Source: Flavobacteriales bacterium (lineage in GTDB: Bacteria; Bacteroidota; Bacteroidia; Flavobacteriales_D; Crocinitomicaceae). From it: a stretch of 35,448 bases of DNA. Position 1 is the stretch's first letter, and each line of letters opens with the position of its first letter. The translations under genes and the position numbers were made by a program. Location of the stretch: NCBI GenBank assembly GCA_947475095.1, contig CANJLG010000025.1:1-35448 (forward strand), given 5' to 3'. Under the pieces are notes generated by a model. It was not told the origin of the DNA. It saw only the letters and a list, made by a program, of their open reading frames with translations, and did no database searches. This document shows positions 1,947 to 29,405 of this stretch, in pieces.

Positions 1947-1977
1947 TTGATTGAAAAGTTGTAATTGATTATATTTG
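1947..1977 (+). promoter_or_regulatory. Promoter of the paaABCD operon
   Basis: TTG at 1947-1949, a 20-nt spacer and TATATTTG at 1970-1977 match the Bacteroidota -33/-7 pattern. The -7 box ends 18 nt before the ATG at 1996. It overlaps the upstream in-frame TTG codon at 1975, which therefore lies before the expected transcription start and cannot be the translation start. Confidence 0.6.
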
Positions 1978-1995
1978 TGTAAAAAATTCTTTAAA

Positions 1996-2949
1996 ATGGA
2001 AACATCATCTCTTGACTTACTAGAAAGTAATTTCCAATCTAAAATTGATAGGGACATAAAAATTGAACCGAAGGATTGGATGCCAGATGATTATCGACAA
2101 ACCTTGATTCGTCAAATCTCTCAGCATGCTCATTCAGAAGTTGTTGGGATGTTACCTGAAGGTAATTGGATTACGCGTGCTCCCAATTTACGTCGGAAGG
2201 CGGTTTTGCTAGCAAAAGTGCAGGATGAGGCAGGACATGGTTTATACCTTTATAGCGCCACAGAAACACTTGGTGCAGATAGAGAAGAGTTGATTGATGA
2301 CTTGCACGAAGGCAGAGCTAAGTATTCTTCTATTTTTAATTATCCTACTTTGTCATGGGCCGATATGGGCGCTATTGGTTGGTTGGTCGATGGTGCAGCC
2401 ATCATGAATCAAGTGCCGCTTTGTCGCTGTTCATACGGGCCGTATGCCCGAGCAATGGTGCGAGTATGTAAAGAAGAATCTTTTCATCAGCGTCAAGGAT
2501 ATGAAATTATGATGAGCTTAGCGAATGGATCGCCTGAACAAAAAGCAATGGCTCAAGATGCTCTAAATCGTTTTTGGTGGCCAGCTTTAATGATGTTTGG
2601 TCCCAACGATGCAACGTCTAAACATACCGCTCAATCTATGAAATGGAAGATTAAGCGTAATACTAATGACGAGCTAAGACAGCAGTTTGTTGATGTTACC
2701 GTTCCTCAGGCAGAATTAATTGGACTTACTATCCCCGATGAAAATTTAATATGGGATGAAAAATCAAATCATTACATCACAAGCCCCATTAATTGGGATG
2801 AGTTTTGGCAAGTCGTAAACGGTAACGGCCCGTGTAATAAAGAACGGATTGAGGCACGAAAGAAAGCAAAGGAAAATGGAAAATGGGTGAGGGATGCCGC
2901 GATGGCTCATGCCATAAAAAGAAACGCAATTAATTTATTAACAGCATAA
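1996..2949 (+). CDS. paaA: Phenylacetyl-CoA epoxidase catalytic subunit PaaA
   Basis: PaaA is the catalytic di-iron subunit of the multicomponent oxygenase that converts phenylacetyl-CoA to the 1,2-epoxide. The ATG at 1996 gives 317 residues, close to the usual 310-330; an in-frame TTG at 1975 is possible on paper but sits inside the promoter -7 box. Di-iron ligand motifs typical of ferritin-like oxygenases are visible: QDEAGH at residues 76-81 (E78, H81) and KEESFH at 159-164 (E161 or E160, H164), with a further Glu in SEVVG near residue 48. It opens the operon paaABCD, with paaB 9 nt downstream, and diverges from paaE. Confidence in identity is very high. Confidence 0.96.
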
Positions 2950-2958
2950 AAATAAATT

Positions 2959-3246
2959 ATGTCAGAACAAGAATGGCCTCTTTGGGAAGTGTTTATCCGA
3001 AGTAAGCAAGGTTTAAATCATAAACATGTTGGAAGCTTAAGAGCACCAGACGCTCAATTAGCAGTTGACAATGCACGCGATGTATATACCAGGCGTTCGG
3101 AGGGAATTTCCATCTGGGTGGTGGCATCAAACAATGTCTTTGCCTCTGATGCCTCAGAAGCGGATGCTTTTTATGACCCTTCAAATTCTAAGGTGTATCG
3201 TCACCCTACTTTTTATGATGTACCGGATGGCATTTCTCATATGTAA
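2959..3246 (+). CDS. paaB: Phenylacetyl-CoA epoxidase subunit PaaB
   Basis: PaaB is the small non-catalytic subunit of the PaaABCE complex that bridges the PaaAC heterodimers. At 95 residues it is the usual length. The N-terminal WPLWEVFIRSKQGLNHKHVG and the following segment with DAQLAVDNARDVYTRR are hallmark PaaB sequences. It lies between paaA (9 nt upstream) and paaC (3 nt downstream), in the standard gene order. No oddities are seen. Confidence 0.95.
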   Translation: MSEQEWPLWEVFIRSKQGLNHKHVGSLRAPDAQLAVDNARDVYTRRSEGISIWVVASNNVFASDASEADAFYDPSNSKVYRHPTFYDVPDGISHM

Positions 3247-3249
3247 AAA

Positions 3250-4002
3250 ATGAAAGAGCACCTATTAAAATATGTATTGAGGTTAGGAGATGATAGTCTC
3301 ATTCTAGGTCAGCGATTGGCAGAATGGTGCGGTCACGGACCAATTCTTGAGGAGGACATAGCGCTAACGAATATCTCATTAGATTTAATTGGACAAGCGA
3401 CAAGTTTACTTAATTATGCTGGGGAAATAGAGGGTAAAGGTAGAAAAGGAGACGATTTTGCATTCTTACGACTCGAAAAAGAATATGTGAATTGCCTCTT
3501 AGTTGAACAAGTGAATGGTCATTTCGGCGACACAATACTGCGTCAATTTTTTTTCGATACTTATCGCAAAAATCTTTTTGAGGCCTTACAATTATCAAGT
3601 AATAAACAACTTGCCGCTATCGCTGAAAAATCGTTAAAAGAAACGCGGTATCACCTTAAACATTCTTCAGAATGGTTGATTAGGCTAGGTGATGGCACGG
3701 ATGAATCGCATCTCAAAATGCAAGAATCTCTAAATACTTTGTGGCGATATACGGATGAACTGTTTTTTGAAGATGAGGTAGATCTTTATTTGAGGGAAAA
3801 CAAGGTAATTCCTGATTTGTCTCACCTCAAAGGTATCTGGAAAGAACACGTGGATGCTATTCTGCTGCAAGCAAATCTAGAAATCCCTACAAATAATTGG
3901 CAATTCCAAGGTGGCCGTTTAGGAAGACATTCTGAACACATGGGCTTTCTTTTGGCTGAATTGCAATATATGCAACGTACCTATCCTAATATGGAATGGT
4001 AA
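3250..4002 (+). CDS. paaC: Phenylacetyl-CoA epoxidase structural subunit PaaC
   Basis: PaaC is a ferritin-like four-helix protein that pairs with PaaA but usually has no working di-iron site; it stabilises the complex. The 250-residue length matches the family (about 250). Recognisable segments are LRLGDDSLILGQRLAEWCGH near the N-terminus, ETRYHLKHSSEWLIRLGDGT in the middle, and GGRLGRHSEHMGFLLAELQY near the C-terminus. The start is 3 nt after the paaB stop, and the 3' end overlaps paaD by 7 nt, which suggests translational coupling. Confidence 0.95.
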   Translation: MKEHLLKYVLRLGDDSLILGQRLAEWCGHGPILEEDIALTNISLDLIGQATSLLNYAGEIEGKGRKGDDFAFLRLEKEYVNCLLVEQVNGHFGDTILRQFFFDTYRKNLFEALQLSSNKQLAAIAEKSLKETRYHLKHSSEWLIRLGDGTDESHLKMQESLNTLWRYTDELFFEDEVDLYLRENKVIPDLSHLKGIWKEHVDAILLQANLEIPTNNWQFQGGRLGRHSEHMGFLLAELQYMQRTYPNMEW

Positions 4003-4484
4003 GCAATGACCAAATCTATGATTGGCTAGCGTCGGTTAATGATCCCGAGGTGCCCGTTTTATCAATTCTTGATTTAGGCGTCGTTAGGGGTGTTAAGCAA
4101 TTAGAAAATGGCGCTTGGGAAATCACCATTACGCCAACTTATAGCGGTTGCCCTGCAATGCAAGTGATTGAAGACGATATTAAAGCCAACTTACTTCTTA
4201 ATGGTATAGATAATGTGCAGGTCGTTTCTGTTCTTTCTCCTGCTTGGACAACGGATTGGCTATCAGAAAATGGACGAAAGAAATTAAAAGAATATGGTAT
4301 TGCTCCGCCAGTGAACGAATTGGACAAAAGTGTATTATTTGGTGTGCCAACGCCTGTGCCCTGTCCATTATGTGATACAATAAACACCAAAATGATTAGT
4401 CAGTTTGGCAGTACTGCTTGCAAAGCACATTATCAATGTCAGGAGTGCTTGGAGCCTTTTGATTACTTTAAATGCCTTAAATAA
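3996..4484 (+). CDS. paaD: Phenylacetate degradation protein PaaD (MIP18/DUF59 family)
   Basis: PaaD is needed for a working phenylacetyl-CoA epoxidase but is not part of the complex; its MIP18-type (DUF59) fold points to iron or iron-sulfur maturation. The 162-residue protein has the DUF59 core NDPEVPVLSILDLGVVRGV at the N-terminus and a cysteine-rich tail with C-P-L-C, a further Cys in STACKAH, C-Q-E-C and a final Cys in FKCLK, consistent with metal binding. The ATG at 3996 lies inside paaC, overlapping it by 7 nt. It ends 8 bp from a convergent glycosyltransferase gene, with no hairpin terminator between them. Confidence 0.93.
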   Translation: MVSNDQIYDWLASVNDPEVPVLSILDLGVVRGVKQLENGAWEITITPTYSGCPAMQVIEDDIKANLLLNGIDNVQVVSVLSPAWTTDWLSENGRKKLKEYGIAPPVNELDKSVLFGVPTPVPCPLCDTINTKMISQFGSTACKAHYQCQECLEPFDYFKCLK

Positions 4485-10152: not shown

Positions 10153-10342
10153 TTGAAAGGCTAATTTACAGCGATAAGTTAAATGCAGCAATATTATAAC
10201 TCTTTTTTATCCATAAAGTTGCTAGATGGGCATAAATCTATCTTGATTATTTTATTCGTTTTTAGCAAGAGATTATTAACTCAATAATTGGCTCAAGTTT
10301 GTATTTTTATTTGTTAATTTGCCAATCCAAAATTTAATAATT

Positions 10343-12949
10343 ATGAATCGTTTTACGCTCTTCTTTTTCTTTTCGTTTGTTTGTCTTTATTCCTTTGCTC
10401 AAAATTATAGCAGGGTGAAAATTATCACCGATGATGCAGGCCTCGCTATGCTTTCTCAGCATGGGGTAACCATAGACCATGGAATCCACAAAGAGGGTCA
10501 ATTTTTCATTTCTGATTTTTCAGCTTCAGAAGTGGCAACGATGCAGGCCTTAAATGTAAATATCGAGATTCTTATTGCAGATGTTGTTTCTTATTATGAG
10601 CAAATTTTAATGGAGCCGGCAAGTGACCAAACCCTGCGAAATGCCAATTGCTCTGGCGGTGCTGGCGCAAGTGGAGGGTTCTACACCAATCCTGCTACAC
10701 CAACTCATTTTAATTTGGGGTCCATGGGCGGCTATTTAACCTACAACGAAATGTTGGCTGAGTTAGATGAAATGTTTGCGACATACCCCAATTTAATCAC
10801 CCAGAAAAGTCAAATATCCAATTTTTTAACCCATGAAAATAGGCCCATTTATCACGTTCGAATCTCAGATAACCCCAATGTAGACGAAGCTGAAGCGAAG
10901 GTACTATATACGGCTATTCACCACGCCCGAGAGCCAATGAGTTTAATGGAAACCATCTTTTATATGTGGTTCATTTTAGAAAATTATGGTACAAACGATG
11001 AGGTAAGTTATTTAGTCAATAATTTTCAAATGTATTTTGTACCGTGTATCAATCCAGATGGATACGTGTATAACCAGACCACAAACCCAAATGGAGGAGG
11101 AATGTGGCGAAAAAATAGAAGAAACAACGGAGGAGGAGTATATGGAGTCGACCTAAATCGCAATTATTCGTACGGTTGGAATACAACTGGTACCTCTACA
11201 AACACGAGCAATGATACCTATTGTGGTACTTCAGCCTTTTCAGAGCCAGAAACACAAGCGATTCGGTGGTTGGTTCAAAACAACGATTTTATAACGGCAT
11301 TCAATGCACATACTTATGCCCAAGATATTTTATTTCCAATTGGGACAACCACGGCAGAATTTGCCCCACATCATAATTATTTTCAGGATTTTACAAATCA
11401 CATGGTAGAATATAATGGCTATACAGCAATGAAAAGTTCTGCCTTGTATCCAGCTTCAGGTGATTCAGATGATTATATGTATAAAGTTGATGTTGGTGTA
11501 GGGCAAAAAGACACCATATTTGTTAATACACCCGAAGTAGGAACAGCCTTTTGGCAGCCTCAATCAGAAATTGTAAGCACCTGTAAAGGCATGCTTTTTC
11601 CAAATTTAATTCTAGCTCACATAGCCAAGCAATATCTCGTGGTTGAGGAAACCGATCCTGCCATGATTCCTTCGCTTACAGGTAATTTTACCCATTCCGC
11701 CAAAAGACTTGGTCGAGAAGCTGGTTCGGTTAGTGTTTCGATAGATCCTATTCTGAATATCACGAATATTGGGGCTCCTGTCGTGTATAACCTTTTTCAG
11801 CAGCAGTTGGTTAACGGCAATATATCATATTCTTTAAACCCAAACATCCAATTTGGAGATCAAATTAAATATGTTTTAAAAACGGATTACGGTTTATGGA
11901 TCAAAAGGGACACCATCACTAAAACTTATGGTTCATTAACGGTTCAAGTTACCGAAGATGCGACTTCTGCCGTTAATTGGACAGGTAATTGGTCTACCAC
12001 TACCACCACCTATGTCTCAGCAACCAAATCTTTCACGGATACTCCAACAGGAAATTATTCGAACAATACCAACAAAACCTACACATATGTTCCAACCGTT
12101 GATCTTACTAACGCAAGCGATGCCATGGTTAAGTTTTACGCTAAATGGAATTTAGAGGTAGATTATGATTTCGTACAATTTCAAGTTTCCACAGATGGTG
12201 GCACCACTTGGATTGGACAATGTGGTAATTATACGGTTCTTGGAACAAGTGCCAATGGGAGTGTTCAGCCGAATAACCAGCCTGTCTATGAGGGGGTTCG
12301 GTCTTCTTGGGTAATAGAAGAAATTAATTTGAGTGATTACTTAGGTCAAATCATCAAACTTAGGTTTCAACTTAAATCCGATGGAGGAACGACAGCGGAT
12401 GGCTACTATTTCGATGATTTTCAGGTCTTATTTAATCTCGCACCCCCACCGATCGCGCCGGTGGCTCAATTTAGTAGCAGTGCAACAACGGTGTGTGCTG
12501 AACAAGCCATTACTTTTACGGATGCGTCGAGCAATCAGCCTACCACATGGTCTTGGGATTTCGGAGATGGCAACCTATCAACTTTACAAAACCCAAGTCA
12601 TGCATACATGACAGCAGGTGCCTACCAAGTTTCTTTAAGTGCTGGAAATGCCGCAGGAAGCAGTATGTTCTATGATTCCATTTTTGTTCAATCCTGCGCT
12701 TCTTTGTCTGAGGAACAAGGATTTCATATACTGATTTATCCAAATCCGTGGGAAAATGGATTTACGGTTGAAGGATTGTTGCCACAAACAGCTCTTGCCA
12801 TTTATGATTTGAATGGTCGCTGCGTTTATCAACACATTTCCTTTACTAGCACCTGTTACCTAAATACAGAAGAATTGGCTTCTGGGTCTTATGTTTTGGA
12901 ATGTAGGAAAGGACAAAATCATCAAAGGCTATTGATTTTAAAAAAGTAA
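10343..12949 (+). CDS. Secreted M14 zinc carboxypeptidase with PKD and T9SS type A sorting domains
   Basis: This is an extracellular metallopeptidase that removes C-terminal residues. The ATG at 10343 gives 868 residues beginning with a clear signal peptide (MNRFTLFFFFSFVCLYSFAQ); the earlier in-frame TTG at 10319 only adds residues in front of it. Catalytic residues are visible: zinc ligands H194 and E197 in HAREP, substrate-binding LNRNYSYGW, third ligand H323 in FNAHTYAQ, and the general base E398 in TPEVGTAF. A jelly-roll-like domain (about 550-705), a PKD domain (SWDFGDGN, about 715-790) and a C-terminal T9SS type A sorting domain (YPNPWENGF onwards) follow. A tRNA gene starts 6 nt after the stop. 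Confidence 0.93.
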   Translation: MNRFTLFFFFSFVCLYSFAQNYSRVKIITDDAGLAMLSQHGVTIDHGIHKEGQFFISDFSASEVATMQALNVNIEILIADVVSYYEQILMEPASDQTLRNANCSGGAGASGGFYTNPATPTHFNLGSMGGYLTYNEMLAELDEMFATYPNLITQKSQISNFLTHENRPIYHVRISDNPNVDEAEAKVLYTAIHHAREPMSLMETIFYMWFILENYGTNDEVSYLVNNFQMYFVPCINPDGYVYNQTTNPNGGGMWRKNRRNNGGGVYGVDLNRNYSYGWNTTGTSTNTSNDTYCGTSAFSEPETQAIRWLVQNNDFITAFNAHTYAQDILFPIGTTTAEFAPHHNYFQDFTNHMVEYNGYTAMKSSALYPASGDSDDYMYKVDVGVGQKDTIFVNTPEVGTAFWQPQSEIVSTCKGMLFPNLILAHIAKQYLVVEETDPAMIPSLTGNFTHSAKRLGREAGSVSVSIDPILNITNIGAPVVYNLFQQQLVNGNISYSLNPNIQFGDQIKYVLKTDYGLWIKRDTITKTYGSLTVQVTEDATSAVNWTGNWSTTTTTYVSATKSFTDTPTGNYSNNTNKTYTYVPTVDLTNASDAMVKFYAKWNLEVDYDFVQFQVSTDGGTTWIGQCGNYTVLGTSANGSVQPNNQPVYEGVRSSWVIEEINLSDYLGQIIKLRFQLKSDGGTTADGYYFDDFQVLFNLAPPPIAPVAQFSSSATTVCAEQAITFTDASSNQPTTWSWDFGDGNLSTLQNPSHAYMTAGAYQVSLSAGNAAGSSMFYDSIFVQSCASLSEEQGFHILIYPNPWENGFTVEGLLPQTALAIYDLNGRCVYQHISFTSTCYLNTEELASGSYVLECRKGQNHQRLLILKK

Positions 12950-12955
12950 GCCACT

Positions 12956-13027
12956 GACTTCGTAGTTCAACGGATAGAATAGAAGTTTCCTAAACTTTTG
13001 ATCCAGGTTCGATTCCTGGCGAGGTCA
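12956..13027 (+). tRNA. tRNA-Arg (anticodon CCT)
   Basis: A full cloverleaf can be folded: acceptor stem GACTTCG/CGAGGTC, D stem GTTC/GAAT, anticodon stem GAAGT/ACTTT with loop TTCCTAA (anticodon CCT at 12989-12991), a 4-nt variable loop, and T arm CCAGG/CCTGG with loop TTCGATT. The discriminator base is A and the 3' CCA is not encoded. It reads AGG codons. It begins 6 nt after the carboxypeptidase stop, so it either shares that transcript or uses a promoter inside the coding region. Confidence 0.95.
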
Positions 13028-13095
13028 CAAAACAGAGTGAGAGTGTTGCGCTTAGAGAGATTGTAACTTAACTATATTTTTTTTTTATTAGGTGT

Positions 13096-13866
13096 ATGCT
13101 GAAGTTTTTCATTTCAACTGGTTTTTTCTGCTTGTATCAAATCACTTATACTCAAGTTAATTTTTGGAGTATACCCAAGCAACGAATGAATTTGAATGCA
13201 TATGCCCACTTGCCCGAGGGCTCTAAAATTACTTACTCTAAATTTAAAATCAGTGATCAAGTGAGTTTAAAGTCCTATCAGGAATATTTAGACGATATTA
13301 AAAAGGACTCTTCAAGTGACTTTCACACATCCCAGAGACCCCATATCGAGAAGCAAGAACAGTTGACGGCAGCTTACTCTCAATCTACTCATTTGGAAGC
13401 AGAGCCAGTGATTGGTGTGTCATTTGAGCAGGCGATGAACTTTGCCCTTTGGTACCAGAGAAAATATGGAAATAAAGGAAAAACATACCGATTGCCCACT
13501 TTATCGGAATTTTTTCTTGCAGATGCGCATGGCCATGGGGAATTATTAGGCCCAAATTTTTTATTTGCAAATTGGACCTTGAATTCTTTCGATGAAAGTG
13601 CGCGACACTTTCGTTCAAACAAAAAGACTTTTCCTTATGATTATTTTTATGAGCACAAAAGAGAGGACAATAACATTAAAAAGAAAAAATGTGTCATAGG
13701 CAATTCATTTTTGGCTCAATTTAAATATCCCATATCGGCCGCAACTTTCCCATATTATGCCCATCATGGATATGCTCATGTTTCATTTAGAATCGTAGAA
13801 GTTCGTTGCGTTAAATCGAAATTCGCCAAATCAACAAACTATCAAAATGACATTAAACTTAAATAA
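13096..13866 (+). CDS. Divergent GldK-like protein (formylglycine-generating-enzyme fold)
   Basis: This looks like a reduced relative of GldK/PorK, the outer-membrane lipoprotein of the T9SS periplasmic ring. What is seen: a signal-peptide-like N-terminus (MLKFFISTGFFCLYQITYTQ) with no lipobox cysteine; KFKISDQVSLKSYQEYLDDI where GldK has the EITNNEYRQF-type segment; EPVIGVSFEQAMNFALWYQ then TYRLPTLSEFF, matching the PVVGVTWEQA...RLPTEAEW signature of the sulfatase-modifying-factor fold; NWTLNS; and a final VSFRIVEVRC in place of GFR. At 256 residues it is much shorter than typical GldK (350-460). It overlaps the next gene by 20 nt. The fold is fairly secure; the GldK role is inferred mainly from the GldN-like partner. 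Confidence 0.72.
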   Translation: MLKFFISTGFFCLYQITYTQVNFWSIPKQRMNLNAYAHLPEGSKITYSKFKISDQVSLKSYQEYLDDIKKDSSSDFHTSQRPHIEKQEQLTAAYSQSTHLEAEPVIGVSFEQAMNFALWYQRKYGNKGKTYRLPTLSEFFLADAHGHGELLGPNFLFANWTLNSFDESARHFRSNKKTFPYDYFYEHKREDNNIKKKKCVIGNSFLAQFKYPISAATFPYYAHHGYAHVSFRIVEVRCVKSKFAKSTNYQNDIKLK

Positions 13867-14839
13867 ATTAACGGCTTTTATTTTTAGCATTTTTTGTTTT
13901 GGTGTGCAAACACTTATGATAGGTCAATCTCATCAAAAACAGCATTTAAATATTGGAAATTTATCTATCCAGATAGAGTCCTTCAATGGAAGATTAGATG
14001 GCGACCTGATCGTTAGGGATACATTACATAGAGACAAAATTTTATTATCTGGACGAATGCATGACAATGAGAAAATTGGTACTTGGACCTTGTTTGACAA
14101 AAAAAATCCCGATAAAATTATTTTACAGAGAAACTATTCATCTTCAACCAGTTTTACCCAAAATATACCCAAACCTTCAGACCATCAATTGGTTCAATTG
14201 GTTCAAGCTAATTTGAATCCTCGCTTAGGTCGCGATTCTCTTGGACTCATGCAGTATGTTGATGTTTCGATTTTAGATTTTATTTACTCTTGTCGAGTTT
14301 TTAAATCCATTTCAAAAAGCAATAATGCATTACTCTTTTCACCAGATTTCTTGCTGAAAATGATGGATTTCGCAGCCAAAAATAAAATTGTCACATACGC
14401 CAATGAATCATTTAGCGAAGTACTTTCCATCAATCCATTTGACGCTTTAAAATCAGAAATAATCGCTTACCACATCAAAGAGGACTTCTTTTTTGATAAA
14501 AACCGAATGCTTGGAGAATATCGTATTCTAGGCCTTGCGCCAGTAATTTTAAATGAACAAGGAACGCCAATCGAATTGGCTTGGCTTTATTTTCCAGCCT
14601 TGAAGCCCGTTTTCGCCGATGTGTTTGTTAAAAATGGCGATAAAAAAGAATGTTTACACGATTTATTCATCAACAGACAATTCGAGGGATTAGTTTATAA
14701 AAGTCTTTCTTTTAATCAAAACTTTACCAATCAGGCCTTCTACGCAGACATGTTATTTATAATTAAGGAGTTTGAGTATGCTTTGTTTTTTTCTGGCCAA
14801 GACAATTTTTACTTATTTGATAAGGCTACAGGATATTAA
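13847..14839 (+). CDS. GldN-like T9SS ring protein with an N-terminal MORN-like segment
   Basis: This is a 330-residue secreted protein related to GldN/PorN, the periplasmic partner of GldK in the T9SS ring. After a signal peptide (to about residue 27), residues 35-90 resemble a MORN-type repeat (SFNGRLDGDLIVRD, then NEKIGTWTLF), which ordinary GldN lacks. The rest matches GldN: IIAYHIKEDFFFDKNRMLGE, YRILGLAPV, AWLYFPALKPVFAD, DLFINRQFEGLVYK, with an upstream helix-rich part comparable to the GldN core. The gene overlaps the GldK-like gene by 20 nt, so the two are probably translated together. No gldL or gldM lies between or beside them, unlike the standard gldKLMN cluster. The family call is good; the function of this copy is inferred. 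Confidence 0.78.
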   Translation: MTLNLNKLTAFIFSIFCFGVQTLMIGQSHQKQHLNIGNLSIQIESFNGRLDGDLIVRDTLHRDKILLSGRMHDNEKIGTWTLFDKKNPDKIILQRNYSSSTSFTQNIPKPSDHQLVQLVQANLNPRLGRDSLGLMQYVDVSILDFIYSCRVFKSISKSNNALLFSPDFLLKMMDFAAKNKIVTYANESFSEVLSINPFDALKSEIIAYHIKEDFFFDKNRMLGEYRILGLAPVILNEQGTPIELAWLYFPALKPVFADVFVKNGDKKECLHDLFINRQFEGLVYKSLSFNQNFTNQAFYADMLFIIKEFEYALFFSGQDNFYLFDKATGY

Positions 14840-15636: not shown

Positions 15637-16323
15637 ATGGAACCATTAAAAATTGCCATAATTGGTGATTATAATTTTACTTTTAATGCTCACCACGCCA
15701 CCAATCTTTCCTTAGATCACGCTTCCATATTCTTAGATGTAGAAATCAATTATTATTGGATCAAGATAAGCGATGCTGCGCAACAAAAACCAGCTTACTT
15801 TTCCCAATATGATGCTTTTTGGATTGCACCTGGCCCTTATCAAAATTCGTTTTTTTTAAATGGGATATTTAAGCGCCTCATCGAAATAAATAAACCTGTT
15901 CTTGCTACTGGCGAATCTTTTAAAATATTCATGGAATTCCTAATTGCTGCAAATAACCTTAATGTCGTTGGAGATAAGTTAATTTCTGAGAATTTGTCGT
16001 CTGGGCCCTATTTTGAGCAAATTGAAATCACACCAAACTCTCGAATTTTTGCTAAGCTTTATGAAAACTTTACAACAACAGAGTTAACTGCCACGCGCTA
16101 TAGCCTTTATCCTAAATTATTAGATGATTTGGCCGGTGAGTGGATCGATATTGAAGCTAAAAATCAATTTGATGACACTGAAATATTTTCGGTAAAAGAA
16201 TTAACGTTTTTTGTGGTCTGCGCATTCTATCCTCAGGTATCGTCTACTAGAGATATTCCTCATCCTATTATCTATACCTTCCTAAAAAGCGCTGCGCCAT
16301 GGCTCCTTTTAGCAAATGATTAA
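15637..16323 (+). CDS. CTP-synthase-glutaminase-like protein lacking the catalytic cysteine
   Basis: This belongs to the class I glutamine amidotransferase superfamily, closest to the stand-alone proteins related to the CTP synthase C-terminal region. Matching landmarks are KIAIIGDYN at the start, FWIAPGPY near residues 61-68 (WVAPGSPY in relatives), PVLATGESF at 87-95, and FYPQVSSTRDIPHP near the end with H209. Relatives carry GTCGGFQ (or selenocysteine) at the nucleophile position; here the aligned sequence is ATGESFK, so the cysteine is replaced by Gly92. No in-frame TGA is present that could encode selenocysteine. It should not hydrolyse glutamine by the usual mechanism and may be a binding or regulatory protein. 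Its 3' end overlaps the convergent helicase gene by 15 nt. Confidence 0.78.
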   Translation: MEPLKIAIIGDYNFTFNAHHATNLSLDHASIFLDVEINYYWIKISDAAQQKPAYFSQYDAFWIAPGPYQNSFFLNGIFKRLIEINKPVLATGESFKIFMEFLIAANNLNVVGDKLISENLSSGPYFEQIEITPNSRIFAKLYENFTTTELTATRYSLYPKLLDDLAGEWIDIEAKNQFDDTEIFSVKELTFFVVCAFYPQVSSTRDIPHPIIYTFLKSAAPWLLLAND

Positions 16324-19300
16324 TTCAGAGCTAGCGGAATAGTATAAATACGTTTCAGTTGGTAATTCAAACATTTCATTCATGATTCCTTGATACGTAA
16401 TAGCTTGATCAATATGCTTGCTTTGCTTAGCACCTGTTTTAAAGTCAATAATGATTATTTTATCAGACAAGAAGATTATTTTATCGGGTCGTTTCACTTC
16501 TTTTGGCCCCACAATAATAGTTGTCTCGCTTCGAATATCGTTGGAATGTTCAATAAAATTCTTGTAAATAGAATTGCCCAAAAGACCTTTCGCCTCTCGC
16601 AATAAACGTTCTTCATAAATACCATTGATTTCTTCATTAGCGATTAGTTTGCTAAGTGTTTCATCGAGTTCATCGAGTTTATTAACTTGGGCCATTAACA
16701 AATGAAAAGAGTTGCCGTATAAGATCTCATCTGATGAAAAAGCTTCGTCGTGATTGGCACGCAATACAATGTCAGGGTACCAAAGCCTATCATGATGTTC
16801 CGTTGGGCAGTAGAATTCATCTTCTTTGGGCTCTTTATATTCCTTTTTTTCATTTTCATCGCCTTGTTCATAGATAAGCGGCACCATATCAATAATAGAA
16901 GGATCAGCTATTTTTTGTAAAGCAGCATGAACTAATTCTCCAAAATTACCTTTTGAGAAATGATTAAATGCATATAACCTATTTTCTGGCCGGGTCATCG
17001 CTACGTAAAAGAGATTCATTTTATCTGTTAAAATCAATTCTTTTTCAATCTCAGAAAATAATCTTACTGGTTCAATACCACTGCTTAAGGATAAATTTTT
17101 ATATAAAATCTGCTCTCCAGCATCAATGAGGTAGTTGGCAAAGGATAAGAATTTTAAATAAAAGTCGATTTGAGGTAAAATTACAACCGGAAATTCTAAT
17201 CCTTTTGATTTATGAATGGTCATTACTTTAATGGCATCTCTTGATTCAGGCAATTGAATGGCAATGCTATTTTTGTTTTCATCGATATAGGCATTAAAGG
17301 TTGTGATATCGGATTGCCGCGTGGATTGGAAGGCAAAACAAACATCGGCAAAATGATGTAAGTAGGCTTCTTCTGACTCTTTCCACTGCATTAGTTTGAA
17401 GAACTTTTGTATTAAATCATATAAGTTTTCATAGGCGCAAAAGAAATTAATTGCCCCACCAAATTTATCATCTAGGAAGCGATTTTCATTAAATCCTCGT
17501 ATTAGCTTACCTTTCGCATTGATTGTTTCTTCAAAATAAGAAAGGTATTCACTTCCTGCATTTCCAGTAACTATTCTGAAATAACTTTCTGCAAATCGCT
17601 TTATTTCTGTTGTATTAGATGGCTTTTCGCGTCTTTTCAGATAGGATAAGCATAGGCGAACTTTTGAATCGTTCGTAATTAACAGGGAATCAACGGATAC
17701 GATTTTATACCCAGCATTGCTAAGGCCGTTGGCAATTGCATTCCCTATTTTTTTTGTTTCTGATAAGATGCAAATGTCTGCGGGGTCATAGTCATCTTCT
17801 ATGCACTGTTCGATTATTGCAATAATATCCTCTATTAACTCTCCATCAAATGATTCTTTTGCTTGTGACACCAAGCGAACGAAGCCCTCTTTATTTGATT
17901 GTGATTCTTGATGCAAAGAAGAATAGAATTCAGCTGATTTGGCTGATAAATTAGGAATGAGTTGCTCAAAAAATGCATTATTAAAGGCTACGATTTGTTT
18001 CGATGATCGATAATTATTTGTTAATGTTCTAAGGGCACCACGAGAATAAAAATAATCGGATTGTGTCTGCGTGAGCGCATTTTGTTCGGGATTATAAATA
18101 GCGGGAAGCGATACAAACTGATCGGCTAATCCATTATTAAATCGGTATATGGATTGTTTTGGATCTCCTACGATAAGGTTTCGGTTGTTTTTTGATAATG
18201 ATTCGTGGAGTAAAGGAATTAGGTTTAACCATTGAAGGCGCGATGTGTCTTGAAATTCATCTAGTAAGAAATAACTTAAACGATTACCAAGCCGTTCGTA
18301 AATGTATGGGGCTTCTTCATCTCTAACTAAAACGCTAATCATTTTGTTGAATTCCGAAATTCGAATAATTTGCTCCTCTTTTTTGATTATGTCCATTTCA
18401 CTTGCAATAAATTGAAGCAAGGCCATATTGAAAAAGTTATTCTTATATGCTTCCAAAAGCAAAAATCGGGGGATATTCCGTTGAAATTCTTCATCAATAT
18501 TTAATAGGCTTAAGCGCAACTCGTTAGGCATAAAATTGCATTTTTCTTGATTCCTTAGCAATTCATCAATTACTTTTGAGAATAAGCCCGGTTTTTTGAT
18601 TGGGAAAGAATCGTATTTTCCCAGAGCAAGTATTTGATTGTTGGTTGTGGATTTATTAGGAATCTTTTCGAAGTCAATGCCCAAGGATACATAGGCGTTA
18701 TGAAGGGTTCCTGCGGCTTGTAAAAAGGGCCCCTCAATGTCATTTATTTCTTTAAGTAAATTCTTGAAAGCGCCGTCATCTAAAGTCATTTCGATGAGTT
18801 TTTGGACATGGGCATGGTATTTTTCATTACTCAATACACCAGCAAAATCAATAAGTTGATCCCTGAAATTCCATTTTTTACCTTCCTCAAAATTAAACTT
18901 TGCGTATCTTTTAACTAAGGCTGTTAAGTTTTCATAACCATCAACGCCAAGTCGGTTTAGCATAGAGTCTACTACATCTGCTAACACTTGACTTTCATTT
19001 AATACAACTTCAAAGTCGCCTTGAATGTCTAAATCCCTACTAAAGGAACGGATTAGTTTTAAATTGAATTTATCGATGGTTGAAACGTGAAATTCTTCAT
19101 ACCCATGTAATATTTCATGCAGCGTTTGTTTTGCTCTCGCCATTAATTCTAACTCATCAATTGGAAGCGCCTCAAGTAAGTTTTCTCTCATTGAGCTTAT
19201 CTTGTTGCTAGTATTCCTCGTTGCTAGTCCGTCCAAGGTATTGATAATTCTAGTTTTCATTTCCATTGCTGCTTTATTGGTGAAAGTCATGGCAACAATG

Positions 19301-19437
19301 GACTTGTATTTTCCGACACTATTTTTTTCTTCCAATAATATACTTAAGTATTCTAGAACTAACTGGTGTGTTTTTCCACTTCCCGCAGACGCGCTCATTA
19401 CCAACAGTGGTTTTTCTTGTCTTGTGTTATTACTCAT
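16309..19437 (-). CDS. RecB/AddA-type UvrD-family helicase-nuclease
   Basis: This is an ATP-dependent DNA helicase with a C-terminal nuclease domain, expected in double-strand-break processing. Superfamily 1 motifs appear in order over 1042 residues: Walker A SASAGSGKTH (15-24), Walker B LLDEFQDTSRLQW, motif III VGDPKQSIYRF, motif IV NNYRSS, motif V VMTIHKSKGLEFPVV and motif VI FYVAMTRPENRLY. The last 55 residues hold a PD-(D/E)XK-type core, IIIIDFKTG (D998, K1000) followed by QAITYQ. This is the AddA plan; the AddB-type partner often found beside it is not in the window. The start is the ATG at 19435-19437, 56 bp from the divergent MbnP gene. Its 3' end overlaps the amidotransferase-like gene. 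Confidence 0.92.
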   Translation of the reverse strand: MSNNTRQEKPLLVMSASAGSGKTHQLVLEYLSILLEEKNSVGKYKSIVAMTFTNKAAMEMKTRIINTLDGLATRNTSNKISSMRENLLEALPIDELELMARAKQTLHEILHGYEEFHVSTIDKFNLKLIRSFSRDLDIQGDFEVVLNESQVLADVVDSMLNRLGVDGYENLTALVKRYAKFNFEEGKKWNFRDQLIDFAGVLSNEKYHAHVQKLIEMTLDDGAFKNLLKEINDIEGPFLQAAGTLHNAYVSLGIDFEKIPNKSTTNNQILALGKYDSFPIKKPGLFSKVIDELLRNQEKCNFMPNELRLSLLNIDEEFQRNIPRFLLLEAYKNNFFNMALLQFIASEMDIIKKEEQIIRISEFNKMISVLVRDEEAPYIYERLGNRLSYFLLDEFQDTSRLQWLNLIPLLHESLSKNNRNLIVGDPKQSIYRFNNGLADQFVSLPAIYNPEQNALTQTQSDYFYSRGALRTLTNNYRSSKQIVAFNNAFFEQLIPNLSAKSAEFYSSLHQESQSNKEGFVRLVSQAKESFDGELIEDIIAIIEQCIEDDYDPADICILSETKKIGNAIANGLSNAGYKIVSVDSLLITNDSKVRLCLSYLKRREKPSNTTEIKRFAESYFRIVTGNAGSEYLSYFEETINAKGKLIRGFNENRFLDDKFGGAINFFCAYENLYDLIQKFFKLMQWKESEEAYLHHFADVCFAFQSTRQSDITTFNAYIDENKNSIAIQLPESRDAIKVMTIHKSKGLEFPVVILPQIDFYLKFLSFANYLIDAGEQILYKNLSLSSGIEPVRLFSEIEKELILTDKMNLFYVAMTRPENRLYAFNHFSKGNFGELVHAALQKIADPSIIDMVPLIYEQGDENEKKEYKEPKEDEFYCPTEHHDRLWYPDIVLRANHDEAFSSDEILYGNSFHLLMAQVNKLDELDETLSKLIANEEINGIYEERLLREAKGLLGNSIYKNFIEHSNDIRSETTIIVGPKEVKRPDKIIFLSDKIIIIDFKTGAKQSKHIDQAITYQGIMNEMFELPTETYLYYSASSELIIC

Positions 19438-19493: not shown

Positions 19494-20246
19494 ATGAAAA
19501 AGATTTATTTTTTAATCATTTTTACTGGGTGTTTTTTTTTTTATTCTTGTAATAAAGATAAGCCTAATCCAATTGAAACACCAAAATCTTTCGTGGAAAT
19601 AACGGTACAGCCTACCTACAATTCATCTAATCTTTTTCTTGATTCTGTATACATTACCACGGAAGGGTATAAGATTAAATTCACAGATTTAAAATTCTTT
19701 GGCACCACCTTAAAAAACGGTTCCAATAATTTAGCTCAAGTTGGATTTTTCGATTTTGCTTTATCGGGCAATTATTTTATGAAAGTGGAACAAGACGTAA
19801 ATTTATTTTCTGATTTACAAATGATTTTAGGGGTTGACAGTTTGCTGAACCACAACGATCCATCAACATTTTCAAATGATAGTCCTTTGAATATTAGCAA
19901 CGCAGGCACGATGCATTGGGGTTGGAATCCGGGATATATTTTCATTAGCGTAGAAGGAAAAGCTGACACCTTAATCGATGGCATCGAAAACTATGATCAT
20001 AATTTTAGCTTTCATGTTGGTACGGATGAATACCTTCAATCTAAATCTTTCTCTGCGATAAATTGGGTAAAAACTACTCCCAACACGCATACTTTTTCGC
20101 TTCAATTAGATTTGTTTGATGTGATTTGTAATGCAATGACCCCGATCGATTTGCGGACTGAATTTTTAGCACATTCATCTAGCCTACAGGCTGCGCTTAC
20201 CTTAAAATTTGGAAAAAATTTCAAATCTGCTCTTACACCCTATTAA
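19494..20246 (+). CDS. MbnP-family copper-binding lipoprotein
   Basis: MbnP proteins are periplasmic or lipid-anchored and bind copper after their partner MbnH oxidises a tryptophan to kynurenine. The 250-residue protein has a lipoprotein signal ending FFYSC (Cys19), the beta-rich body with LKFFGTTLKNG, and the family signature AGTMHWGWNPGYIFISVEG, which also holds the most likely tryptophans for modification. The family and the adjacent peroxidase make the call strong. The stop and the next start share a base in TAATG at 20244-20248, so the two are probably translationally coupled. No methanobactin precursor or maturation gene is visible, so this is a stand-alone pair. Which tryptophan is modified here is not known. 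Confidence 0.88.
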   Translation: MKKIYFLIIFTGCFFFYSCNKDKPNPIETPKSFVEITVQPTYNSSNLFLDSVYITTEGYKIKFTDLKFFGTTLKNGSNNLAQVGFFDFALSGNYFMKVEQDVNLFSDLQMILGVDSLLNHNDPSTFSNDSPLNISNAGTMHWGWNPGYIFISVEGKADTLIDGIENYDHNFSFHVGTDEYLQSKSFSAINWVKTTPNTHTFSLQLDLFDVICNAMTPIDLRTEFLAHSSSLQAALTLKFGKNFKSALTPY

Positions 20247-21316
20247 TGAAAAAGTGGCTCTGTATTAGTTCGCTAATTTTATTGTTTTCTTGTAATAAAG
20301 ATAAGGCAAGTTATTTACCAACGCCAACAGCTGTGTCGATTCCGTCACACTTCCCTCAAATGCTTATTCCTTCTGATAATTCAATGACGGAAGAAGGCAT
20401 AGAATTAGGAAGGTACTTGTTCTATGAAAAAAGATTGAGCGGTGATAATACAATGAGTTGTGCGACTTGCCATTCTCCTCAAAATTCATTCTCGGATAAC
20501 AATCAATTTTCAGTTGGTATTGACGGATTAATAGGGAATCGTCAATCAATGGCACTTATTAATTTAGGGTGGGAAGATTTTTTCTTCTGGGATGGCAGGG
20601 CAACTTCCTTGGAGCAACAAATACTTGAACCGGTTCCAAATCCGATTGAAATGCATCAAAGTTGGCAAGCCACTGTTCAAAAGCTAAATGCGGATGTGGT
20701 TTACCGAAATAGATTCTTTAAAGCTTTTGGTTCTCCAGTTATCGATTCTACACACGTTGCAAAGGCAATTGCTCAATTTATTAGAACAATGGTGTCTGGG
20801 GAATCAAAATTTGATGTCATGTATAAATACGAGAATGGTTTGTCTCTGAATGCTGTTGAACAGCAAATCTTCACGACCATTGAAGTAGATGAATGGGCAG
20901 GATATGATTTATTTAAAAGTTTAAACGGTGCCGATTGTTTCCATTGTCATAATGGGCCATTGATGCGCGTTAAAAAATTCAGCAACAATGGATTAGATGT
21001 CACCCTAACGGATTTAGGCCGTGGCGCGGTAACAGGAAATTCAAATGATAATGGAAAATTCAAAGTGCCAACACTAAGAAACATTGCTTTAACTGCGCCT
21101 TACATGCATGACGGAAGGTTCGCAACCCTTGATGACGTCATTGAATTTTATTCAAGCGGTGTACATGCAGGCCCTACGGTAGATCCGTTGATTGAATATG
21201 CAAGTCAAGGTGGCGTTCAATTAGATGCTCAAGAGAAGATGTTGTTGAAAAAGTTTTTGCTTACCCTTACGGATTTGAATTTTGTGAATAATCCAGCATT
21301 TAAAGATCCTAATTAA
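20246..21316 (+). CDS. MbnH-type dihaem cytochrome c peroxidase lipoprotein
   Basis: This is a dihaem enzyme of the MauG/MbnH/bacterial cytochrome c peroxidase superfamily, expected to oxidise the neighbouring MbnP protein rather than only remove peroxide. The 356-residue protein has a lipobox (LILLFSC, Cys16) and two haem c sites, CATCH at 72-76 and CFHCH at 231-235. Other family landmarks are FFFWDGRATSLEQQ, PIEMHQSW and the C-terminal YMHDGRFATLDDVIEFY. The overlapping TAATG start with the MbnP gene supports a dedicated pair. A plain cytochrome c peroxidase is the alternative; the MbnP neighbour favours MbnH. The next gene follows after 7 nt. Confidence 0.88.
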   Translation: MKKWLCISSLILLFSCNKDKASYLPTPTAVSIPSHFPQMLIPSDNSMTEEGIELGRYLFYEKRLSGDNTMSCATCHSPQNSFSDNNQFSVGIDGLIGNRQSMALINLGWEDFFFWDGRATSLEQQILEPVPNPIEMHQSWQATVQKLNADVVYRNRFFKAFGSPVIDSTHVAKAIAQFIRTMVSGESKFDVMYKYENGLSLNAVEQQIFTTIEVDEWAGYDLFKSLNGADCFHCHNGPLMRVKKFSNNGLDVTLTDLGRGAVTGNSNDNGKFKVPTLRNIALTAPYMHDGRFATLDDVIEFYSSGVHAGPTVDPLIEYASQGGVQLDAQEKMLLKKFLLTLTDLNFVNNPAFKDPN

Positions 21317-27057: not shown

Positions 27058-28143
27058 TTGGCGAGTCCATTTCGAACCATTTGGCCGACGGATGATCGGT
27101 TCGTGGAAGTAATTGATCAACGCTTTTTACCTCACGAATGGGTAGTGGTAAAACTACATACTTATCAAGAAGCCGAAAGGGCTATCAAAGACATGGTGGT
27201 GCGTGGAGCCCCGCTCATTGGAGCTACAGCAGCCTATGGAATATACTTGGCTGCAAGAGAATGTATCGAAAAGAATCTTAACGCTTCTTTCATGGACCAA
27301 GCTTTCGAGGACATGGCGAAGTCTCGGCCTACTGCAGTGAATTTATTTTGGGCTTTGAATCGGATGAGATTAAAACTCAAGGATTCGCTTGATTTGGTCG
27401 CAGACGCTTGGGAAGAGGCGCAAGCCATTGTAGAGGAAGACATAGAAACTTGTCGTATGATTGGAGTACACGGTTTACCACTCATTGAAGCCATTTCTGA
27501 GAAAAAGCCAGGAGAACGGGTAAATATCCTTACTCACTGTAACGCCGGTATGCTCGGATGTGTAGAGTGGGGTACAGTCACCTCACCGATTTATCAAGCG
27601 AAGCAAAAAGGCATTGACGTACACGTTTATGTAGATGAAACTCGTCCGCGAAACCAAGGTGCAAATCTTACGTCGTATGAACTTACGCGCCATGACATAC
27701 CTCACACCTTGATTGTGGATAATGCTGGAGGACATTTGATGCAGCATGGCATGGTAGATTTAGTGATCGTGGGCACTGATCGTACTACGCGCCAGGGTGA
27801 TGTGGCGAATAAAATCGGAACGTATTTAAAGGCTTTAGCTGCATATGATAATCAAATTCCATTTTATGTGGCCTTGCCATCTACTACCTTGGATTTAAAA
27901 ATAAAAGATGGATTGAGTGAGATTCCAATTGAGGAACGAGACCAAAACGAGGTGAAATACGTAATTGGTAAAAACTCTTCTGGGAAAATCGAATCCGTTT
28001 TAATTTGTCCTGAAACAACTCAAGCGGTGAATCATGGTTTTGACGTTACGCCATCGCGTTTGGTCACCGGCCTAATCACAGAGCGTGGTTTGTGCGCGCC
28101 TAATGAAGCGGCAATTCTTACTATGTTTGGTGACTTGGCTTAA
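27058..28143 (+). CDS. mtnA: Methylthioribose-1-phosphate isomerase MtnA
   Basis: MtnA converts 5-methylthioribose-1-phosphate to 5-methylthioribulose-1-phosphate in methionine salvage. The 361-residue protein has FRTIWP at the start, MVVRGAPLIGATAAYGIYLA, the catalytic cysteine in THCNAGMLG, DETRPRNQGANLTSYEL, and the acidic catalytic segment GTDRTTRQGDVANKIGTY. The start must be TTG at 27058: the in-frame codon before TTC is the metK stop, and the next ATG is about 130 nt downstream, past FRTIWP. This rare start, 3 nt after the metK stop, suggests that translation depends on ribosomes finishing metK. The 3' end overlaps the convergent LETM1-like gene by 4 nt. Confidence 0.93.
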   Translation: MASPFRTIWPTDDRFVEVIDQRFLPHEWVVVKLHTYQEAERAIKDMVVRGAPLIGATAAYGIYLAARECIEKNLNASFMDQAFEDMAKSRPTAVNLFWALNRMRLKLKDSLDLVADAWEEAQAIVEEDIETCRMIGVHGLPLIEAISEKKPGERVNILTHCNAGMLGCVEWGTVTSPIYQAKQKGIDVHVYVDETRPRNQGANLTSYELTRHDIPHTLIVDNAGGHLMQHGMVDLVIVGTDRTTRQGDVANKIGTYLKALAAYDNQIPFYVALPSTTLDLKIKDGLSEIPIEERDQNEVKYVIGKNSSGKIESVLICPETTQAVNHGFDVTPSRLVTGLITERGLCAPNEAAILTMFGDLA

Positions 28144-29405
28144 TCCTTTTCCTCAATTTCATTGGATTTAAAAGCAGAAGGCAATAGATCGGGCACTAAT
28201 TTTAAAATTAAAGGCAGTAAAAGTGATCCGCCAGGTATTAAAAAAATAGCCAGTGAAGGCATCGTTTTTAGTATGTCTTTGAATTGCGTTTTAACAATTT
28301 CCTTCTCTTTGCTCGTAAGTTCGGTATGCATCGACTTTTTAACCAAAGCAAGTAATTCCTTACTTTCTTTTACTTCTTCAAGAAATTTGTCTTTGTTCCG
28401 GCCTAATATTTTTAAGTAGCGTTTTGAAAGATTAGAATACACCATTTTTGATTCCGAACTCGTAGTTAGCAACTCTATAGATGGCGAATATTGCATAATA
28501 AAGGCCTTACATTGAGATATTGAAGACTCTCGCTCTGCTTCATTTAATCCTAACATGGTTCCTAATTCCAAGTGAAACGCATGTTCTTTAATATACCTTT
28601 GGTTTGTTGTCTCTAACATAAATGTGGCAACATCAAACACATAATAACTCAATAATGTATTGTCCCTTTGAAAATAACAATCACTTAATTTTATTTCATT
28701 ATTCTTAATTAATTCATTTATTATTGTTTCATTTTGTTCGGATATACCTGCAGAGGAGATAAAATAACTAATTAGTTTATAGTCTATTTCGTCTATTTTA
28801 TCATCGACTTTCGCAGCAAATACAGTGGCTTGTAAAATTTGTAGTGCATACGATTCAGAATGATTTTCAAATCCTTTTGATTTCCCCCTGAGATAAGCAC
28901 TAAACATGATTATATCTAGATAAACAAAGCTATTCGATAGGTAATTTAACCAAAAATTACTTTCCTTAAGACTGCTTTTTATTTTGATGCGTTTTGAAAA
29001 TAATCGTTCCAGTGCATTTTTCGGCTTGTCGGAATAAAACACCGATAACCATGGATAAATATTAGTCACTTTGTCTGGCGTGTAAAAACGGCATAAACAA
29101 GCGATGAATTCATTTTCGTTGAATGGTTTCTGCGATTCTTGGATGTAAACAATGATCAAGGCTTCGAATAATAAGACCTTTAATTTCTCTTCTTGGGTTA
29201 AATCAAATTTCATCTCTTCAGAAAAAATAAGCCGAGTTGGTGATCCAAAAGTTAATCCGGTATGATTGGCAAAAAAGTGGAGAATTTCATCGTTTTTTTC
29301 ATCAGAGCCCCCCTTAAAATGCGTTGAATCAGCAATGACTATTTCACCACTATCTACGTAGGTAAAGTATTTTGCAATCCAGTTTTTAGCGCTAGGTGAA
29401 AACAT
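28140..29405 (-). CDS. TerB/LETM1-like protein
   Basis: This is a 421-residue protein with a LETM1-related C-terminus. Residues about 384-411 (MPSLAIFLIPGGSLLLPLIL, then KLVPDLLPSAF) match the LETM1 motif that ends in FPNMLPSTF in mitochondrial proteins; the segment is hydrophobic and may be one membrane helix or a hairpin. Residues about 180-230 (AKVDDKIDEIDYKLISYF) look like a TerB-type helical metal-binding region. The rest is helical and not recognisable. Mitochondrial LETM1 is linked to cation exchange and membrane-associated ribosome binding; the bacterial function is unknown. It follows the lamin-tail gene after 7 nt and overlaps mtnA by 4 nt. Confidence 0.75.
   Translation of the reverse strand: MFSPSAKNWIAKYFTYVDSGEIVIADSTHFKGGSDEKNDEILHFFANHTGLTFGSPTRLIFSEEMKFDLTQEEKLKVLLFEALIIVYIQESQKPFNENEFIACLCRFYTPDKVTNIYPWLSVFYSDKPKNALERLFSKRIKIKSSLKESNFWLNYLSNSFVYLDIIMFSAYLRGKSKGFENHSESYALQILQATVFAAKVDDKIDEIDYKLISYFISSAGISEQNETIINELIKNNEIKLSDCYFQRDNTLLSYYVFDVATFMLETTNQRYIKEHAFHLELGTMLGLNEAERESSISQCKAFIMQYSPSIELLTTSSESKMVYSNLSKRYLKILGRNKDKFLEEVKESKELLALVKKSMHTELTSKEKEIVKTQFKDILKTMPSLAIFLIPGGSLLLPLILKLVPDLLPSAFKSNEIEEKD

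Follow-up and report, generated by a model that had tools for sequence, protein, structure and literature searches.

A Divergent GldK-like/GldN-like Protein Pair, Fused in Many Relatives, Encoded Apart from the gldKLMN Cluster of a Flavobacterial Genome

Results

The stretch of DNA analyzed here (the window) comprises 35,448 nucleotides of contig CANJLG010000025.1 from assembly GCA_947475095.1, a Flavobacteriales bacterium of the Crocinitomicaceae, and contains two coupled genes, here called K′ and N′, whose products resemble GldK/PorK and GldN/PorN of the type IX secretion system (T9SS). Both genes lie on the forward strand in different reading frames and overlap by 20 nucleotides (13847–13866), with gldL and gldM absent between them. 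The K′ gene (13096–13866) encodes a short GldK/PorK-like protein of 256 residues, the core of which is related to formylglycine-generating enzyme (FGE): A signal-peptide-like N-terminus without a lipobox (residues 1–19, 13096–13152; called by eye, as is that of N′) is followed by a match to Pfam FGE-sulfatase (residues 44–147, 13225–13536; E = 3.4e-9), by a short junction from RLPT to NW (residues 132–160, 13489–13575), where GldK has about 74 residues including the client-binding cysteine loop, and by the C-terminal tail YQNDIKLK (13840–13863), which resembles the ...EEIQSDIQLK tail of the GldK from the same genome. The N′ gene (13847–14839) encodes a protein of 330 residues with its own signal-peptide-like N-terminus (residues 1–27, 13847–13927), a MORN-like β segment (residues 30–107, 13934–14167) and, according to a fold match, a PorN-fold domain (residues 127–320, 14225–14806), whose KEDFFFD motif (residues 211–217, 14477–14497) belongs to the core in common with canonical GldN. 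An earlier note, made from the letters of the window, had described divergent GldK and GldN homologues in this arrangement, the former short and without a lipobox, the latter extended by a MORN-like segment, and the profile searches and PorK/PorN matches given below bear this description out.

The close spacing of the two genes recurs in relatives: In 9/9 split pairs the distance from the K′ stop to the first in-frame ATG of N′ is −20 to +6 nucleotides, and the identical 20-nucleotide overlap is found in a second species (G005), whose N′ is 30% identical to that of the window.

Among the NCBIfam models, K′ matches GldK best (E = 6.2e-9) and GldJ far more weakly (0.01), yet it stays below the curated cut-offs of both TIGR03525 for GldK (35.6 vs 350 bits) and TIGR03530 for GldJ (14.8 vs 382.9 bits) and falls outside the GldJ clade. 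N′ passes the gathering threshold of Pfam GldN PF19841 (5e-18; 66 vs 23 bits) and is below the curated cut-off of TIGR03523 (37.2 vs 85.9 bits). Scores this far short of the NCBIfam equivalog cut-offs mean that K′ is not an ordinary GldK, nor N′ an ordinary GldN. The divergence of K′ is strong, as its database search returned two proteins and PorK was matched in the PDB at E 0.005 only. K′ has an FGE-like fold that matches PorK, and N′ has the PorN fold.

A comparison of 27 K′ proteins with 18 GldK proteins, the latter set without G156 and G264, whose canonical GldK is split across contigs, delineates what K′ has kept and lost. The FGE-like core is retained throughout, and the GldK-like C-terminal tail is retained in the window's clade. 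From the first FGE helix to the YPVVG strand, the alignment leaves 43–47 residues in all 27 K′ proteins, compared with 219–395 in GldK, and from RLPT to the EWC/DWT motif K′ has 23–51 residues, compared with 74. The cysteine of the GCF loop occurs in 18/18 GldK and 0/27 K′ proteins, and a loose regular expression for a lipobox matches 17/18 and 2/27, respectively. We draw here on excerpts of two publications of 2025, which report a high-resolution structure of the PorKN ring and a model of the GldJKN track (PMC12421860, PMC12635249). In these excerpts, GldK Cys343 and PorK Cys356, part of a conserved RGCF motif whose cysteine is termed invariant in GldK/PorK, form disulfides with SprF and PorG (PMC12635249). 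The GCF/GCM motif of our GldK set probably corresponds to this motif, and the longer gap in K′ would correspond to InsH, the insertion through which PorK self-associates; InsH and VR3 were located on K′ by alignment, not by coordinates.

In N′, 19 alignment columns are common with canonical GldN (rows compared without L038), and seven conserved columns are particular to N′, six of them inside the MORN-like insert. Its residues G69, G78 and W80 are present in 28/28 N′ proteins and form a family signature, whereas the motif is not present in canonical GldN. Canonical GldN may carry a reduced MORN-like remnant, or N′ may represent an expansion: The VLDG of canonical GldN (around Gly41 of the GldN from the same genome) is aligned with an LDG (Gly52 of the window's N′) that lies within the first half of the N′ MORN-like segment. 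A further difference concerns the motor-contact site. PorN A241 cross-links to PorM (excerpt of PMC12421860) and, with a numbering offset derived from the sequence letters, falls directly after the position of Arg396 in the GldN of the same genome; this arginine is found in 42/44 canonical GldN but in 6/28 N′ proteins, and the window's N′ has an asparagine. The idea that N′ lacks the N-terminal helix of PorN was dropped, as the model shows a helix ahead of the core.

In many relatives, K′ and N′ form a single polypeptide. A database search with N′ yielded 25 proteins, 19 of which are single chains of 529–577 residues with an FGE-sulfatase as well as a GldN domain, and a profile of the mostly fused family yielded 38 proteins, with both domains in 29. 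The first half of the fused proteins aligns with K′ and the second half with mature N′; in the aligned fusions, the K′ tail (..DIxLK) is followed by a linker, with no counterpart of the signal-peptide-like N′ start. Where named, the fused relatives stem from metagenome-assembled genomes of Crocinitomicaceae, Flavobacteriales or Bacteroidota. Genome G193, which belongs to the window's family, has a GldN (L081) that matches the GldN of Crocinitomix catalasitica (L047) in every column used for the tree, so that this family is probably Crocinitomicaceae.

The taxonomic spread was surveyed in drawn genome samples with four candidates scored per genome, so that the N′ counts are lower bounds. In the order (profile A2, 17 rows), at least 20/299 genomes contain N′-type proteins: nine with fused K′, six with split K′ and five with N′ alone, so that the K–N pairing is kept in 15/20. 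The class sample gave N′ in at least 7/346 genomes, two of which are also in the order sample, with split pairs in three genomes and N′ alone in two outside the order; the phylum sample gave at least 1/345, namely the window's genome. Assignment to N′ rested on a line drawn after a gap had been seen, between matches of 122 bits with long coverage and matches of at most 111 bits covering the last third, by which 7/14 matching genomes in the class sample and 1/2 in the phylum sample were set aside as canonical GldN. A search for K′ elsewhere in the seven N′-only genomes gave best matches of 38–53 bits in 7/7, compared with 160 and 320 bits in the controls G195 and G005, which leaves room for a very divergent K′. 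From the survey and these genomes, N′ appears to be the constant part and K′ a partner that accompanies it. In one scan of viral contigs, the single N′ used as query gave no relative. The survey for K–N pairs without gldL and gldM that the earlier note had proposed thus uncovered fused and split examples.

In the N tree, 44 canonical GldN and 28 N′ proteins fall on opposite sides of one branch (100/99), and in the K tree the 27 K′ rows form one clade, separate from GldK (18), GldJ (9) and nine other FGE proteins, the deep placements involving long branches. We regard K′/N′ with high confidence as a distinct paralogous K–N pair. The fused label requires four changes on the N tree, three of them forced by well-supported branches, and two on the K′ tree, both forced; fusion or splitting therefore happened more than once. 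Distances within K′ and N′ co-vary (ρ = 0.68 for 20 pairs and 0.46 for 13 genomes, both p 0.0005), whereas those of K′ and GldK do not (ρ = −0.12, p 0.71). The natural fusion and this co-variation imply that K′ and N′ act together. Ratios of nonsynonymous to synonymous substitution rates (dN/dS) indicate purifying selection, with 0.18 for K′ and 0.12 for N′ in G264/G308; in G253/G305 the fused protein gave 0.14 (dS 1.9, near saturation) and canonical GldK 0.07, and in the remaining three pairs synonymous sites were saturated.

The same genome encodes the main machinery at another locus: GldK, GldL, GldM and GldN follow one another in this order on contig C7, forming a separate complete cluster whose absence the earlier note had set beforehand as speaking against its interpretation. 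The GldK on C7 has 666 residues with the lipobox LSGC and an NGCF loop, the GldN has 428 residues, and a porP/sprF-like gene (named by eye) adjoins the cluster. At E 0.001, the genome contains one GldL and one GldM, and a second gldL or gldM that could provide a motor for K′/N′ was not found. In the 20 carrier genomes of the order, GldK exceeds its cut-off in 19, GldL in 19 and GldM in 18; G264, with a fragmentary GldK, is also the exception for GldL, and GldM is under the cut-off in G264 and G087. As side observations, a second GldM copy shares the contig of the first in G137, G195, G266 and G154 but is on another contig in G231; G174 has a GldM-like reading frame off the main-cluster contig (C30:16887–18317, 756 residues, 94.8 bits); and second GldK-like FGE proteins outside the GldK clade are found in G087 (C70, L129, 644 residues) and G005 (C5, L131, 629 residues).

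Discussion

The best sequence and fold matches for K′ and N′ are to the PorKN ring of Porphyromonas gingivalis (PDB 9mzu, 9ots, 9myj and 9p6h; PorN 7pvh), in which K likewise goes together with N in a 1:1 ratio. They differ from it in that K′ is without lipobox, mapped K–K insertion and cysteine loop, in that N′ adds the MORN-like segment, and in that their genes are coupled or fused with no gldL and gldM in between. With the GldK and GldN on C7, K′ shares the C-terminal half and tail and N′ the core residues, but the cut-offs and the separate clades set both apart. GldJ, the second FGE-like track protein, resembles K′ in its FGE-like fold, in the missing long H-helix insertion and in having no cysteine at the GldK position (0/9); unlike K′, it forms its own clade and has large other inserts. 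GldO or tandem GldN copies are, like N′, additional GldN-like proteins; unlike N′, the tandem copies adjoin the main cluster (e.g., in G137), and those in the tree (L022, L028, L082, L084 and L085) group with canonical GldN.

We tentatively propose that K′ and N′ constitute an untethered 1:1 K–N unit, which would be unable to polymerize alone. As an end-cap or modulator, it would act in trans, with the main track or ring as its target; we hold this reading at somewhat less than even confidence. Such action in trans is most likely because the genome has a single GldL and a single GldM and because the genomic location of the pair is free. An old paralogous pair of the T9SS/gliding track, K′ and N′ would be made together through close gene coupling, or as one polypeptide in many relatives, and would presumably contact each other and work as a 1:1 unit in the periplasm. 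K′ has retained the FGE-like scaffold, which in PorK is the PorN-binding part, and has given up the lipid anchor, the mapped PorK–PorK insertion and the loop whose cysteine links the track to client proteins of the outer membrane; N′ has retained the PorN fold, mostly without the arginine next to the motor-contact site, and carries a MORN-like sheet. A ring or track would not arise from such a unit alone. It may instead dock on the GldJ/K/N track and GldLM motor, of which the cell has one each, and there could limit or tune polymer growth or motor engagement. What was directly observed is the homology, the coupling or fusion of the genes, the deletions, the selection and the presence of the main machine in the same genomes. 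The narrower form of the proposal, a dedicated end-cap that docks like a K–N repeat, cannot be extended, tethered or client-loaded and thereby sets track length or ring closure, is unlikely; the excerpts of PMC12421860 and PMC12635249 name no end-cap factor for track or ring.

A number of observations weigh against this proposal. GldJ has 54–55 residues where GldK has the long insertion and is yet a modeled track subunit, so that loss of the insertion need not block polymerization. VR2, VR3 and InsH of PorK also contact PorN in the ring (excerpt of PMC12421860); K′ is without VR3 and, as mapped, without parts of VR2 and InsH, and the K′–N′ contact can therefore not simply copy that of PorK and PorN. 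The window's N′ deviates at 4/19 core columns, and loss of the motor-site arginine is not uniform across N′. The distances are near saturation, and those of N′ correlate weakly with those of GldK from the same genome (ρ = 0.27, p 0.05). The family is sparse, most genomes being without the pair, and no neighbor is common to the loci beyond close relatives, which offers no functional hint. Finally, the occurrence of N′ without detected K′ in seven genomes means that N′ can have a K′-independent role; these genomes favor a role that involves direct contact of N′ with the main machine or with some other partner.

Some of these points feed rival explanations. K′ and N′ could build a second, independent K–N polymer, i.e., a small ring or filament of their own in which MORN and N′–N′ contacts replace the K–K insertion, either as a motorless scaffold or driven by GldLM. 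The 1:1 fusion agrees with the equimolar PorK:PorN ring, GldJ likewise has no long insertion but polymerizes in the published model (ring and model both from excerpts of PMC12635249), and the family has its own history; we nonetheless consider such a polymer unlikely, as the mapped insertion and the lipid anchor are gone from K′, N–N contacts are described as relatively weak (excerpt of PMC12421860) and the genome yielded no second motor. Of the accessory ring suggested in the earlier note, the accessory relation to the main ring is supported, but a separate ring is doubtful because K′ is without the segment mapped to the PorK self-association insertion. The pair might also have left the T9SS and serve the envelope as a scaffold, its FGE/MORN/PorN-fold complex working with a different partner. 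This would suit the N′-only genomes, the long branches in the N tree and the MORN motif, which is among the most strictly conserved parts; we judge it quite unlikely in view of the main genes kept by the carriers and the retained K–N pairing. Decidedly unlikely is a motor-side regulator, in which N′, stabilized by K′, takes the D4 site of GldM and slows the motor or uncouples it: N′ retains the PorN fold and PorM D4 binds PorN (excerpt of PMC12421860), but the arginine beside the PorM-contact residue is mostly lost.

An adaptor for particular T9SS cargo or clients, also raised in the earlier note, would fit the cargo genes beside the pair in the window. The neighbor list comprised 75 proteins after removal of four near-duplicate loci and of proteins with >1500 or <110 residues, and 74 were scanned for type A sorting tails, the window's type B protein being excluded. 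Eight of the 74 carry such a tail, compared with about 2.9 expected from a baseline of 3.9% that is itself an underestimate (P 0.008 with and 0.02 without the window). This weak excess is all that the wider neighborhood yields for an adaptor; the cargo neighbors are unconserved beyond close relatives and the client-binding cysteine loop is gone from K′, which makes an adaptor very unlikely. Decay of a duplicate, or a frameshift in a copy of a fused gene, might explain the truncation of K′ relative to GldK and the separate frame of N′ where relatives are fused. This is, however, highly improbable given the dN/dS of 0.12–0.18 in relatives, the signal-like N-terminus of N′, the separate clade and two full-length 90%-cluster representatives (P0001 and P0026; 65 and 51 members) that are 98–99% identical to the window; together with the overlap conserved in a second species, dN/dS and these full-length copies led us to reject a pseudogene.

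A natural, covalently fused minimal K–N unit lends independent support to 1:1 pairing. It also uncouples this pairing from self-association, from tethering by a lipid and from the attachment of clients, and provides structural studies with a small target. Moreover, K′N′ brings up a question open to experiment, namely what sets the limit to the length of a moving track.

Neighborhood of the Pair in the Window

Immediately upstream of K′ lies a tRNA-Arg (CCT; 12956–13028, forward strand), preceded by an M14 carboxypeptidase with a T9SS type A sorting domain (10319–12949, forward strand), the adjacency of which is not conserved in relatives. Farther upstream, 1975–4484 contains phenylacetyl-CoA epoxidase genes, with PaaA and PaaC over the NCBIfam cut-offs and PaaB/PaaD-like neighbors assigned by position only. 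Downstream, the window encodes a RecB/AddA-like helicase on the reverse strand (16309–19437; best NCBIfam match PRK13909, 263 bits vs a cut-off of 650), a di-heme MauG/MbnH-like enzyme under its family cut-off (20246–21316) that follows a small lipoprotein-like gene called by eye, and, on the reverse strand, a LETM1-related biofilm-associated protein (28140–29405; 248 bits vs an NCBIfam cut-off of 250).
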